NCBI RefSeq assembly: GCF_002286735.1
Contig: NZ_NRTA01000037.1
Location: 1-38,796, forward strand
DNA: 38,796 nucleotides
Reading direction: 5' to 3'
Origin: Leptolyngbya sp. BC1307
GTDB taxonomy: Bacteria; Cyanobacteriota; Cyanobacteriia; Phormidesmidales; Phormidesmidaceae
Shown here: positions 34,263 through 38,166 of the stretch, piece by piece
How positions within the stretch are numbered: the first letter of the stretch is position 1
Layout of the letters: each line of letters begins with the position of its first letter
Program-made: the position numbers and the translations under genes
The notes under the pieces: model-generated
What the model was told of the DNA's origin: nothing
Seen by the model: the letters and a program-made list of their open reading frames with translations, nothing else
The model's database searches: none

Positions 34263-34606
34263 ATGAACTATCCTCACATCCAGAAGGGCGCAGAGCCGGA
34301 CAATGCTACTACATTCAAAATCAGCCTTTGGTCAAAGGCCGTAACGTAGACTTTGCTATCGATCCGCCGCCTGATCTGGTCGTGGAAGTGGATATTACTC
34401 ATACAGATATTCGCAAAAATCAGTTTTATGCCAGCTTAGGTGTGCCTGAGTTTTGGCGATTTAACGGAAAAGTGTGGCGAATCTATCAGTTGCAGGCTGG
34501 CGTTTATGTAGAAGTCGGGAGTAGCCCAACGTTTCCTACTGTAGAGAAAGCTCAGCTTTACAGCTTTCTAGAGGCTGCTAAAGAGGACGAAATCGAGGCT
34601 GTCGCA
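34263..34606 (+). pseudogene. Uma2-type endonuclease remnant 1
   Basis: A C-terminal part of a Uma2-family (DUF820, PD-(D/E)xK fold) protein. HIQKGAEPDN is in one frame; after a missing base near 34304 it continues as CYYIQNQPLVKGRNVDF in the next. PPPDLVVEVDI holds the nuclease-type Asp/Glu pair, and VPEFWRFNGKVWRIYQL follows. The N-terminal half is gone and the 3' end runs directly into transposase sequence at about 34605. So it is frameshifted and cut at both ends. Confidence 0.78.
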
Positions 34607-35127
34607 CGGAATTATGTACGTCGTGGTTCAAGGCTGTAAATGGCGCGACCTGCCTGGCGACTTGCCGCCTTGGTCAACGGTATACGCTTACTTTCGCAAC
34701 TGGCGCAATGATGGCACCTGGCTAGCTATTCATGACCGCTTGCGCAGTTGGGAGAGAGTCAGTCGCGGTCGCCAGGAAAGCCCATCTGAGGCGATTGTTG
34801 ACTCTCAAAGCGTGCCAACCGCGACGATGGTGCATGAGGCGGTGGGCTACGACGTAGCCAAACAGACCAAACGCTGGGATTAGTGCTGCGAGTTGTCGTC
34901 ACGGCTGCGAGTATGCCTGAACGGGCAGGCGGCAAACAAGTGCTCACTCGTGTCCATCAGATGGGTAAAGCGGTGTCTCGGCTGTCGCTGATTTGGGCTG
35001 ATGGGGGCTATAGCGGCCAGCCTTTCTTAAGATGGGTGATGGATAGCTTCCGATGGATTGTTCAAGTTGTGCTCAGACCCAAACAGGCGAAAGGATTCAC
35101 GCTACTCAAAAAGCGCTGGGTGGTGGA
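34607..35127 (+). mobile_element. IS5-type transposase remnant
   Basis: Two frames give pieces of an IS5-family (DDE) transposase: GIMYVVVQGCKWRDLPGDLP through YDVAKQTK (34607 to about 34872), then GLVLRVVVTAASMPERAGGK through TLLKKRWVV (about 34879-35127). The DDE parts IVDSQSVPTA and LIWADGGYSG are visible. The start, about nine to ten residues in the middle (where GRKRHVTVDT is usual) and the end with the final Glu region are deleted. I find no terminal inverted repeats. Immobile relic. Confidence 0.85.
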
Positions 35128-35188
35128 TGTGATTCATTAGAGATCAGGTATGCTCTTGACGGCTAAGCTATGTTAATATCTTAAACAA

Positions 35189-35342
35189 CGAAGGGGAGTA
35201 GCTTTAAGACTCTCTAGTATCTCCTAAGGTGATATTTTCTATAGCGTCCTTTGTCTGAGTCAACATACTGGCGATGAGCCTGGTTCAGACGGTAAATTAG
35301 AAGCACTTTAAATCAGTCTTCTAGTTTGCAAGCAAGACCTTC
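35189..35342 (+). promoter_or_regulatory. yybP-ykoY manganese riboswitch
   Basis: The hallmark segments of the yybP-ykoY class are present in order: GAAGGGGAGTAGC (from 35190), GAGTCAACATACTGGC (35258-35273) and AGCAAGACCTTC (35331-35342). P1 pairs GAAGG (35190-35194) with CCTTC (35338-35342). GACTC (35208-35212) with GAGTC (35258-35262) forms an inner stem, and TAGAAG (35298-35303) with CTTCTA (35318-35323) another. The class binds Mn2+ and turns on manganese-export genes. It lies 86 bp before the mnx start codon in the right orientation. Confidence 0.93.
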
Positions 35343-35374
35343 ACTAAGTCCACGGTTAAGTGGGCCTGGTGAAG
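35339..35374 (+). promoter_or_regulatory. Expression-platform hairpin competing with riboswitch P1
   Basis: CTTCACTAAGTCCAC (35339-35353), loop GGTTAA, and GTGGGCCTGGTGAAG (35360-35374) form a 15-bp stem with one A-C mismatch and two G-T pairs. Its 5' arm uses CTTC, which is also the 3' arm of P1, so the two are mutually exclusive. There is no T-run after it, so it is not a classical intrinsic terminator. Translational or Rho-type control is more likely. Confidence 0.65.
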
Positions 35375-35427
35375 TGTGCTCAAACCTCCATCATGCCTGC
35401 CCATCCGACACGTTGCTAGAGCAGAGC

Positions 35428-36042
35428 ATGAGTTTATTCAATGGATTTACAGCTGGGTTGTTACTGATTACGCTATCAGAACTCGGCGACAAAACTTTTT
35501 TTATTGCTGCTATCCTCGCGATGCGTCATCCCAGACGTTGGGTCTTTGTCGGGGCAACTGCCGCACTGTTTACGATGACCGTGTTATCTGTACTGATTGG
35601 GCAGGTCGCAGCAATATTTCCGCAGCAGTATGTCAATGGCATCGCCGCTGCGTTGTTTATTGGCTTCGGGCTAAAGCTGCTTTACGATGCGCTGAAAATG
35701 TCTGGCAATAAAGGCCTTGCTCATGAGCAAGCAGATGCCTATAAAGCCGTTGAGCAAAGAGAACAGGGCGTTATTGCATGGTCGATTAGAGCAGTAGTGA
35801 TAGAAGCCTTTACGCTAACTTTTATCGGGGAATGGGGCGATCGCACCCAGATTGCCACCATTACACTAGCTGCGGCTAACAATCCTTTAGGCGTCATCAT
35901 CGGCGCTACGCTAGGCCATGCTATTTGTGCGGCTATTGCGGTTGTCTGTGGCAAGCTGCTGGTCGGACGCATTTCAGAGCGTCTATTGATTAGCGTAGGT
36001 GGAGTCTTGTTTATTATCTTTGGGGTCGTGACTATATCATGA
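35428..36042 (+). CDS. mnx: Mnx/TMEM165 (Gdt1, UPF0016) family manganese exporter
   Basis: A 204-residue membrane protein with about six helices in two inverted halves. Each half has the signature of the Gdt1 family: ELGDKT near residue 17-22 and EWGDRT near 142-147; their acidic residues bind the transported cation. In Synechocystis the homologue exports Mn2+ from the cytoplasm toward the thylakoid lumen, and plant PAM71 and human TMEM165 are relatives. The Mn2+ riboswitch upstream supports manganese as substrate here. ATG 35428 is chosen as it starts at the conserved N-terminal helix; an in-frame GTG at 35374 is possible. It shares an ATGA overlap with the downstream cytochrome gene. Confidence 0.92.
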   Translation: MSLFNGFTAGLLLITLSELGDKTFFIAAILAMRHPRRWVFVGATAALFTMTVLSVLIGQVAAIFPQQYVNGIAAALFIGFGLKLLYDALKMSGNKGLAHEQADAYKAVEQREQGVIAWSIRAVVIEAFTLTFIGEWGDRTQIATITLAAANNPLGVIIGATLGHAICAAIAVVCGKLLVGRISERLLISVGGVLFIIFGVVTIS

Positions 36043-36764
36043 TGAAACCGAGTCAACCTTATCAACCCCTGCTGCTCCGTATTCTGCATGGTTTCACAGG
36101 CATCTGTTTAATCCTAGCAATTCTGACGGCCTTCTGGACGTACAACACCTATGATGGCCGCTGGGGGCAAGTGCCTTTACCCGAGTACAAAGAGATTGAA
36201 GGTATTCATGGAACGTTTGGGCTGTACACTCTGTTGATTTTTCCAGCGTTTGTGCATTACGCTTTTCAGCGGGGCCAGCGGCGTCTTGTACAGCCGGATT
36301 CTTTTACAAAGTTGGTACAGGTGGGGCAACCAATTTGGTGGTATACGTTAAATCGTTTCACCAATACATTAGCGCTTTTGGCTTTAACCTTTGCGCTTTT
36401 CAGCGGCAAGATGATGGATGAAACTTGGTTGCCTAAAGGGGATCTGGATCATATTTGGTACTATGGTCATCTTATTTCTTGGGTCGTAATGGTGGCGGTA
36501 ATCGCCCTTCATCTGCTGATGAACGCGCGGATCGGCGGCACACCCTTGCTACTGTCTATGTGGAACCCAAAGTTTCGGGCCAAAGATACCCCCCAACTTT
36601 GGCCGAAGAACGTTCTAATTGGGTGGCAAAAAACCAGGCGACGTTCTTGGCTTAAAAAGTTTTATGCACTAGCCGAGCTGCCTCAGTTAGAATTGGCAAT
36701 TTTGGGCACTCTTTTCCTCGCTTGGGCTATTTCGCTGCTGAAGGAATTTGCTCTAGCAGGCTAA
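36039..36764 (+). CDS. Four-helix b-type cytochrome, cytochrome b/b6-domain protein
   Basis: A 241-residue membrane protein with at least four core helices and one near the C-terminus. The core helices carry histidines spaced for two b hemes: His17 (RILHGF), His57 (GIHGTFG), His73 (FVHYAF), His134 (YYGHLISW) and His148 (IALHLLMN). It resembles the cytochrome b561/hydrogenase-cytochrome b group of membrane electron carriers; electron donor and acceptor are unknown. Start ATG 36039 overlaps the mnx stop (ATGA), so translation is coupled and it falls under the same Mn2+ riboswitch. A link between manganese export and membrane redox is suggested by this arrangement but not proven. Confidence 0.82.
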   Translation: MMKPSQPYQPLLLRILHGFTGICLILAILTAFWTYNTYDGRWGQVPLPEYKEIEGIHGTFGLYTLLIFPAFVHYAFQRGQRRLVQPDSFTKLVQVGQPIWWYTLNRFTNTLALLALTFALFSGKMMDETWLPKGDLDHIWYYGHLISWVVMVAVIALHLLMNARIGGTPLLLSMWNPKFRAKDTPQLWPKNVLIGWQKTRRRSWLKKFYALAELPQLELAILGTLFLAWAISLLKEFALAG

Positions 36765-36961
36765 AAATCTCGTTGAACGTATTCCGAAATGCTCCCACCA
36801 AGAGCGATCGCACCGCCTGATTTCGACAGTTACGCTTCAATGACTTCAGCGGCTCAAGAGGCTGTACTACTCAAGTTCTAAGATCTACACCCCTAGCATA
36901 TCAATGCTTCTAGACCGATGTGGGGAGAATTACAGGTATCTCGGTCAGGGGTCACAATCGT

Positions 36962-37207
36962 TTACCCGATCCTGTACTGCTGTTGCTGATAGTCGTCTCC
37001 TTGCAATTGGCAGACCGTGAAAGTAGGCTGCTTTGGCTTACCAATGAAAGCCGTTCCGCCCAGCCCGCGAAAGTCGGCAATCCAATATTCCAGAATGCCG
37101 AGCAGGGCGTATTCTTCCAGCTTTCGGGCGTAGTCGGTTTCCCAGTTCGTGCTGACGACTTCGGCGACTAGCTTGACGGAGCGTCCTAGCATAATCACAG
37201 GTTCGCG
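36962..37207 (-). pseudogene. Uma2-type endonuclease remnant 2
   Basis: About 80 residues of another Uma2-family protein: REPVIMLGRSVKLVAEVVST with the Glu of the nuclease core, YARKLEEYALLGILEYWI, and DFRGLGGTAFIGKPKQPTF. The N-terminal half is missing, the remnant begins 7 bp after the stop of the upstream hypothetical gene, and a TAA interrupts after QYRIG; the typical C-terminal tail does not follow. It belongs to a different Uma2 subgroup from remnant 1 and lies on the opposite strand. Confidence 0.78.
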
Positions 37208-37214
37208 CGCCTTC

Positions 37215-37598
37215 CTAATCTGCCTTTTTCTCCTGATATTCAGAGATACTTTCATAGACAGTATCTGGAAATGTGAGATCTTGATAGACGTTGCAGGCGT
37301 CCGGATCTGCTGAATTGGGGCAAATGGTAAAGTCTTGCTGGCTTTGATACTCCAAAATAGTATCGCGGTTAGGCGGGCTATAGCCCTTGCTGGTGACCTG
37401 TTGATAGAGCGATCGCGCTTCTTCTTCGCTAAAGTCTTTGTCTTTTTTCAGCTCGCCAACAATCTCATCTTCATCGGCAAAGTACTGAGCAATCATCGTA
37501 AAAACAAGTCTGCCATAGTGCCCAATGTCTGTGCCGTCTTCCAGAGCATCTAAAAGATGCGCCATCATATTACTGGTGCGTAGGTCTGCTACTGCCAT
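37215..37598 (-). CDS. Hypothetical cyanobacterial protein
   Basis: A 127-residue soluble, acidic protein from ATG 37598. The first 70 residues are helical (MMAHLLDALEDGTDIGHYGRLVFTMIAQYFADEDEIVGELKKDKDFSEEEARSLYQQV). A second part contains two Cys (CPNSADPDAC) that could form a disulfide or bind metal, then a Tyr/Asp-rich tail. I believe similar proteins occur in other cyanobacteria, but I know no function. Base composition is ordinary for the window. It stands alone between a Uma2 remnant and mgtC. Confidence 0.7.
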   Translation of the reverse strand: MAVADLRTSNMMAHLLDALEDGTDIGHYGRLVFTMIAQYFADEDEIVGELKKDKDFSEEEARSLYQQVTSKGYSPPNRDTILEYQSQQDFTICPNSADPDACNVYQDLTFPDTVYESISEYQEKKAD

Positions 37599-37717: not shown

Positions 37718-38166
37718 ATGACTGAGTTGACAGGACTGGTGCCGATGGGGCTAGGTGACCTGACGCTGCGCTTGGGCTGTGCGCTGTTAGCGAGCTTCGT
37801 GATTGGCTGGGAGCGTGAGACTAAAGAAAAAGCGGCAGGGCTGAGAACCAATCTGCTCGTTGGGCTGGGATCGGCGCTGGTGATTTTGGTGCCGATACAG
37901 GTAGGTGCAGTAGCGCAGTCGGTGGATACGTTGGGGCGATCGCTCCAGGGCGTGATGACTGGCGTAGGTTTTGTTGGCGGCGGCGCGGTAATGCAAAAAG
38001 ATCGGGTAAAAGGGTTAACTTCGGCGGCGGCGCTATGGGATCGGCGGCGCTTGGTATTGCAGCGGCCTGCGGACAGTGGCAGCTCAGCGTCATGGGAGCC
38101 CTGGTAGCCTGGTTTGTCCTCAGAGTCGTTAACCAGGTAGAGAAGACGGTTTCCCGGCGACCCTGA
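37718..38166 (+). pseudogene. MgtC/SapB-family membrane protein with a -1 frameshift
   Basis: The first 106 codons encode the N-terminal helices of an MgtC-like protein: LRLGCALLASFVIGWERETKEKAAGLRTNLLVGLGSALV, then TGVGFVGGGAVMQKDRVKGLTSAAALW. At 38036-38039 the frame is lost and a stop comes at 38107. Adding one G to the GGG run restores GSAALGIAAACGQWQLSVMGALVAWFVLRVV and a natural end at 38166, about 149 residues in all. MgtC proteins act in growth at low Mg2+ and in ATPase regulation. A homopolymer sequencing error would explain this as well as mutation. Confidence 0.82.

Follow-up and report, generated by a model that had tools for sequence, protein, structure and literature searches.

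A predicted manganese riboswitch precedes an mnx exporter gene and an overlapping b-type cytochrome gene in Leptolyngbya sp. BC1307

The sensing of excess manganese by cyanobacteria, whose photosynthesis depends on this metal, is largely open. A contig of Leptolyngbya sp. BC1307 (NZ_NRTA01000037.1), analyzed here over its whole length of 38,796 nucleotides (the window), brings this question to a single locus, in which a structured leader precedes a gene for an Mnx/GDT1 exporter whose end is overlapped by a cytochrome gene. The initial annotation had read the locus as a yybP-ykoY riboswitch leading an mnx-cytochrome operon. Is the leader a member of this Mn2+ class, does the cytochrome belong with the exporter, and at which step would a switch act? 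The features discussed below are collected in Table 1.

Table 1 Features of the riboswitch-mnx-cytochrome locus, in positions of the window.
Feature	Position	Strand	Support or remark
Aptamer (yybP-ykoY, Mn2+ class)	35190-35342	+	RF00080 and model R1
Aptamer core	35173..35295	+	R1 match, 76 bits, E 2.6e-12
P1.1 5' strand GAAGG	35190..35194	+	Pairs with CCUUC 35338-35342; pair table
L1 5' strand GGGGAGUAG	35193..35201	+	Loop motif
Helix P3, loop L3 UCAACAUACU (35260-35269) and inner GGC/GCC hairpin	35253..35290	+	Covariation
L1 3' strand AGAC	35335..35338	+	Invariant in 44/44 aligned leaders
Segment A: P1.1 3' strand and 5' strand of A:B hairpin	35338..35353	+	
Segment B: partner of A (OFF) or C (ON)	35360..35374	+	
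Segment C: partner of B (ON) or D (OFF)	35389..35400	+	
Segment D GCAGAGCAUGAG: ribosome-binding region and AUG start codon of mnx	35421..35432	+	
mnx, Mnx/GDT1 (UPF0016) exporter, 204 aa	35428..36042	+	PF01169, 157.1 bits
b561-type cytochrome gene, 241 aa, ATGA overlap with mnx	36039..36764	+	PF01292, 44.1 bits

Both coding assignments of the initial annotation held. The mnx product matches PF01169 in two stretches, and its translation includes both E-x-G-D-(K/R)-(S/T) motifs, as ELGDKT and EWGDRT. The cytochrome matches PF01292 well above the profile cut-off of 30.1 bits, and its start codon spans the mnx stop in the letters ATGATGA. Downstream of the two genes, partial profile matches mark frames of the Uma2 family (36962-37255, - strand) and the MgtC family (37718-38107, + strand).

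The status of the leader was less straightforward. According to the initial annotation, the lack of an RF00080 match above threshold would refute its reading and, taken literally, this is what was found: a search of the window at the gathering threshold returned nothing. With lax filters, the best match (35192-35398, + strand) scored 34.9 bits against a gathering score of 45 bits, which is a database cut-off and not a biological feature, and a search of the whole 4.9 Mb genome gave this match (E 2.6e-7) and no other. The missed cut-off is not decisive against a riboswitch, because none of the 386 genomes of the phylum passes it and just two of five named control genomes with RF00080 matches do. 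The conserved blocks of the class occur in the window in the proposed order: the L1 5' strand is followed by a sequence fitting the L3 consensus UCNNCAUACU, and the closing helix P1.1 is present. Tested for GAGAC, the L1 3' strand of the window reads AAGAC, which retains the invariant AGAC. P1.1 shows a compensatory change from G-C to A-U in 4/44 aligned leaders, counted in hand-placed columns without a shuffle control. In P3, all eight pairs change on both sides and 97.2% of the cells are paired. All five pairs of the distal helix of the L1 leg also vary on both sides, the window's own row being poorly aligned there. We consider it almost certain that the window leader is a yybP-ykoY riboswitch, and from its class it probably binds Mn2+.

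An IS4/5-type transposase has left remnants (DUF4096 followed by a DDE domain; 34614-35140, + strand) whose end is about 30 nt upstream of the riboswitch leader, and the promoter may therefore lie in or next to this element. No sigma-70-type site was found in a promoter scan of the + strand from 34500 to 37300.

We searched for the same leader across the phylum. At E ≤ 0.01, RF00080 matched in 51 of the 386 genomes, and 48 of the 53 matches have mnx no more than 400 nt downstream. Relatives of mnx were found in 90/386 genomes at E ≤ 1e-20. Leaders of 88 of the 91 panel mnx rows were examined (rows from G324, G291 and G257 were left out) and 60 include both loop motifs when slightly relaxed patterns are used; over all fetched loci there are 68 distinct leaders with both motifs. 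Forty-four diverse leaders, including that of the window, were aligned and used to build a covariance model, R1. In this alignment, 15 of 16 aptamer pairs vary on both sides and 93.8% of the cells are paired, as compared to just 23-47% when the partners are slid by one to three columns. The covariation score of 0.464 exceeds the 0.218 of shuffled columns, and none of 500 shuffles reaches any of the five measures; the column shuffles, like the partner permutations used below, ignore the relatedness of the leaders. R1 was run with strict filters on the 10 best first-look candidates per genome and gave 61 matches spread over 60 of the 386 genomes, with two in G170; its sensitivity is partly built in, as many of the training leaders come from the searched genomes. 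All 61 matches are within 400 nt upstream of mnx. A riboswitch thus heads mnx in two thirds of the mnx-bearing genomes (60/90) and, judged by motifs and covariation, this Mn2+-class riboswitch is widespread in cyanobacteria.

Some single leaders deviate. The second mnx of G170 (L143, G170:C2) has a leader reading GGGTAGTAG and CCAACATACT, and no cytochrome row was found near it. In the mnx leader of L104, a second L3-like motif, TCAGCACACT, is located 14 nt before the true one. G021, a distant member of the phylum without an mnx row, has two RF00080 matches on the - strand (L201:1626-1782, E 7e-7; L202:1557-1703, E 9e-6), and the frames behind them resemble, by eye, small and Tim44-like membrane proteins.

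We then considered whether the cytochrome has a functional tie to mnx, or is a passenger placed beside it by chance or shared inheritance. A survey of mnx neighbors, suggested by the initial annotation, showed that the pairing recurs in other loci and is not a one-off. It is, however, infrequent, in favor of a passenger: of the 61 panel genomes in which both were counted, only 6 have mnx and cytochrome genes within 500 bp of each other (five tandem, one divergent). This count took 98 cytochrome rows, excluding short or split matches, and 75 of 91 mnx rows, excluding the 16 weakest; a smaller count with 40 cytochrome rows gave five pairs. Most copies of the cytochrome have unrelated neighbors, and 60 of 80 rows are without an mnx or CoaT-like gene within 1.5 kb. 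Against a passenger stands the gene order behind mnx. When the first gene found behind mnx was compared over 86 panel loci, the cytochrome formed the largest same-strand cluster, with five members, the other two same-strand clusters being pairs; in 31 of these loci the following gene is on the opposite strand.

The history of the pairing also argues against a passenger. In a tree of mnx, a cytochrome gene lies within 1.5 kb in 12 of the 14 rows of one clade, and elsewhere in L041, L068, L075 and L125. The cytochrome label requires seven changes on this tree, as compared to about 15 when shuffled, and the best-supported branches force at least four; the tree was made by a quick method, long branches including L068 and L075 are flagged, and gains and losses are not distinguished by such a count. 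For mnx on the tree of the cytochrome, nine changes are needed, as against a shuffled mean of 14.7. Three arrangements occur, namely mnx followed by the cytochrome, the cytochrome followed by mnx (L075) and a divergent one (L041, L125). By these trees and gene orders, the two genes appear to have become neighbors several times.

Other cytochrome copies adjoin exporters of a different type. In three near-copies of one locus (L058, L061, L063), the cytochrome follows a P-type ATPase gene within about 140 bp, and a gene for a regulator with MerR and CbiC domains is divergent to the ATPase gene. We take these to be CoaR-like and CoaT-like, the metal, presumably cobalt, being assigned from the regulator. 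In L055, a more distant P-type ATPase (34% identical) precedes the cytochrome, also within about 140 bp. A possible metal island was seen in L041 (2901-7844), where a riboswitch-led mnx, a divergent cytochrome gene and CoaR-like and CoaT-like genes lie in a row. The cytochrome looks like a recurrent, non-obligatory partner of metal exporters. A functional link to mnx is likely, and a mere passenger is rather unlikely.

The overlap itself is less common than the pairing. Of 13 tandem loci, two overlap, the window by ATGA and L032 by TAATG, while eight have gaps of 58-119 nt and two (L009, L080) have candidate cytochrome starts 46-61 nt after the mnx stop. The cytochrome matches in L076 and L077 are in two pieces in different frames, the gene being broken or misassembled, so the 328 nt gap computed for L076 is not a true gap. 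At the non-overlapping tandem loci, the cytochrome may be made independently of the switch.

What could this cytochrome do? All 63 aligned cytochromes match PF01292 (E ≤ 0.001), and histidines 17, 57, 144 and 158 are invariant among them; two haems are expected. The structural model (pLDDT 90.2) consists of helices at residues 11-38, 53-78, 98-125 and 139-173 and further C-terminal ones. If the N-terminus is inside, His 17 and 158 would be nearer the inner face and His 57 and 144 nearer the outer face. Residues D39 and R41 are also invariant in the 63 proteins, and E54, E128, residue 135 (E, in the window D) and H138 nearly so; according to the predicted helix boundaries, all six would be in or beside the outer loops. 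The top structural matches were FdnI, HyaC and cytochrome b6, with Z scores of 9-11.5, the best being FdnI (1kqf_C; Z 11.5, rmsd 3.8, 164 residues aligned) and HyaC (6g94_A; Z 10.4, rmsd 3.9, 138 aligned). On its own, this fold match of the model to cytochromes is weak, because designed helical bundles reach 9.7-9.8. Foldseek with the model gave no match under E 0.001, and neither the cytochrome sequence nor its alignment found a match in sequence searches of the PDB.

One specific role would be that of a superoxide oxidase of the CybB kind, guarding the membrane under manganese stress. CybB likewise has two b haems in a small membrane protein of four helices (PMC11869295), its histidines 13, 45, 137 and 151 are spaced similarly to those of the window protein, and a Synechocystis mnx mutant shows signs of oxidative stress in excess manganese (PMC11649195). 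However, hhalign matched the two profiles over 17 columns at E 0.2, which is not convincing, and CybB was absent among the structural matches listed. The window cytochrome, with six histidines in all and one arginine in the first outer loop, has no evident counterparts, when compared by spacing only, of the CybB cationic cluster (R30, R35, R38, R108, K134) or of its quinone-site residues H87 and H158 (PMC11869295). We regard such an oxidase as unlikely. Our best guess for the cytochrome is quinol-linked electron transfer to the outer side, and any single reaction is at best tentative.

The remaining question is how the leader would act on the genes behind it. Behind the aptamer come four segments, A to D, whose pairings A:B, B:C and C:D are mutually exclusive and each covary in the 44 leaders. 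P1.1 is common to the aptamer and this expression platform, as its 3' strand is the start of segment A. The ribosome-binding region falls in segment D, which in the window's clade takes in the start codon as well. All 60 panel leaders of mnx that carry both loop motifs also have segment A, and 27 of the 28 without them lack it; in 43/44 aligned leaders the segment begins 84-106 nt ahead of the start codon as placed by homology. Native duplexes have mean energies of -21.1 (A:B), -19.0 (B:C) and -18.3 kcal/mol (C:D) over the 44 leaders, and all three are more stable than duplexes with swapped partners (z -7.8, -8.7 and -9.9, respectively; 0 of 2000 permutations each). The control pairings A:D, A:C and B:D show no native preference in these leaders (z -0.1, -0.4 and +1.7). 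On two of five measures, the column counts are borderline for A:B (21 and 26 of 500 shuffles as high) and weak for B:C (161 and 206 of 500).

The minimum-energy fold of the window leader combines A:B and C:D and thus is the OFF form. In the energy model, C:D stays when only the P1.1 part of A is blocked; when the whole of A is blocked B:C forms, and D then pairs with coding RNA or, in an RNA cut at 35436, with nearby leader RNA. As modeled, energies alone show neither a switch nor a free ribosome-binding site, and since D re-pairs in the ON fold, the ON decision would have to be kinetic or aided by docking. A short upstream reading frame from an AUG inside segment C was also set aside, as this AUG is AAG in most relatives.

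These pairings bear on the step that is controlled. The L. lactis riboswitch works by transcription termination (PMC11087558), and A:B, a strong hairpin, or C:D could be a terminator here too. However, a scan of 34500-37300 for a stem followed by a T run revealed no terminator-like site in the leader, and the three-way exchange of partners runs, through a C:D pairing that covaries, to the start codon of mnx and its ribosome-binding site. Termination is therefore quite unlikely for this leader, although a Rho-dependent form is conceivable. The switch probably acts at translation, because C:D pairing occludes both the start codon of mnx and its ribosome-binding site. That the leader is a degenerate, non-sensing relic, as might be thought from its score below the Rfam cut-off and its place directly behind transposase remnants, is very improbable against its intact loop motifs, P1.1, P3 and A-D platform, which match those of covarying relatives.

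Manganese most likely turns the switch on, by analogy to the P1.1 logic of L. lactis and X. oryzae, where P1.1 is described as a switch helix stabilized by Mn2+, whose 3' strand is thereby kept from a competing hairpin (PMC11087558, PMC6754395); in the X. oryzae construct, GAGACC lies within the 3' half of L1 and P1.1 (PMC6754395). In the translational mechanism that we propose, P1.1, a weak helix, would be open without Mn2+ and A would pair with B. This would leave C free to pair with D, masking the ribosome-binding site and start codon of mnx. With Mn2+, docking of the L1 and L3 legs would keep the first part of A in P1.1 as its 3' strand, so that B could capture C, D would be released and Mnx would be made. 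The ATGA overlap would couple translation of the cytochrome to that of mnx, and excess Mn2+ would therefore yield an exporter together with a two-haem membrane cytochrome. The cytochrome, in turn, may take electrons from quinol and carry them through the membrane to its outer side, where they could keep exported metal reduced or remove oxidants.

The operon proposed by the initial annotation thus stands as regards riboswitch, exporter and overlap, while control of the cytochrome is to be expected only where the genes overlap, because the switch is most likely translational. To the overall explanation, a translational Mn2+ riboswitch driving an exporter and a coupled cytochrome, we give a probability of about 0.78. 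A broader proposal is possible but doubtful: a quinol-linked two-haem cytochrome beside Mnx and CoaT-like exporters would serve as a redox partner for metal export, delivering electrons to the outer face, where exported manganese or cobalt would be kept divalent and soluble or their oxidants disarmed, and in some lineages it would be switched by Mn2+ through a translational riboswitch.

Neither the class of riboswitch nor the families of the exporter and the cytochrome are new. According to a review, a yybP-ykoY riboswitch precedes UPF0016 genes in 328 of 333 bacteria screened (PMC7380456), and cyanobacterial copies may therefore already figure in the sources of that review. A 2024 study of Synechocystis presents ManSR as the sole manganese regulation identified in cyanobacteria and, in the parts of its text covered here, names yybP-ykoY for heterotrophs (PMC11649195). 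The same review places the UPF0016 gene of Anabaena under ManS/ManR (PMC7380456), so other regulators may act on mnx. Among the matches listed in the open-licence literature, titles and abstract openings named neither a cyanobacterial manganese riboswitch nor an mnx-cytochrome pair, and in the portions of that literature searched, no description of the four-segment platform was found among the matches listed. A riboswitch that precedes mnx in 60 of 90 mnx-bearing genomes and is missed by the Rfam cut-off would make manganese sensing in cyanobacteria directly testable, and would give the yybP-ykoY class a four-segment platform that hides a start codon. The recurrent pairing of the cytochrome with exporters of manganese and cobalt type suggests a redox step in metal export that has not been described.

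Compared with known systems, the window leader resembles yybP-ykoY riboswitches (RF00080) of L. lactis, X. oryzae and E. coli in its L1 and L3 motifs, AGAC strand, P1.1 and P3, and in its location before a gene for a Mn2+ exporter. Translational control is known from E. coli members of the class. The leader differs from known RF00080 members in that neither it nor any other match in the 386 genomes searched exceeds the gathering score, and from the L. lactis terminator in its four-segment exchange ending on the start codon. The exporter is like Mnx/SynPAM71 (sll0615) of Synechocystis, which likewise combines two E-x-G-D motifs and two GDT1 stretches in a single protein. Unlike sll0615 as described, the mnx gene of the window is headed by a riboswitch and overlapped by a cytochrome gene; the Synechocystis accounts, in the parts covered, mention neither a riboswitch leader nor a following cytochrome (PMC11649195, PMC7380456, PMC7020235). 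The cytochrome shares a four-helix core and four conserved histidines with prokaryotic cytochromes b561 of PF01292 (FdnI, HyaC, CybB). It differs from them in that no dehydrogenase or hydrogenase gene follows it in the window, and it is further set apart by its extra C-terminal helices, by conserved acidic and histidine residues predicted in or near the outer loops and by the recurrent location of its family beside metal exporters. Finally, in L058, L061 and L063 a regulator and a P-type ATPase like those of the CoaR-CoaT cobalt efflux system of cyanobacteria precede a copy of the cytochrome; CoaR-CoaT has a protein regulator and is thought to export another metal, whereas the pair in the window is led by a riboswitch.
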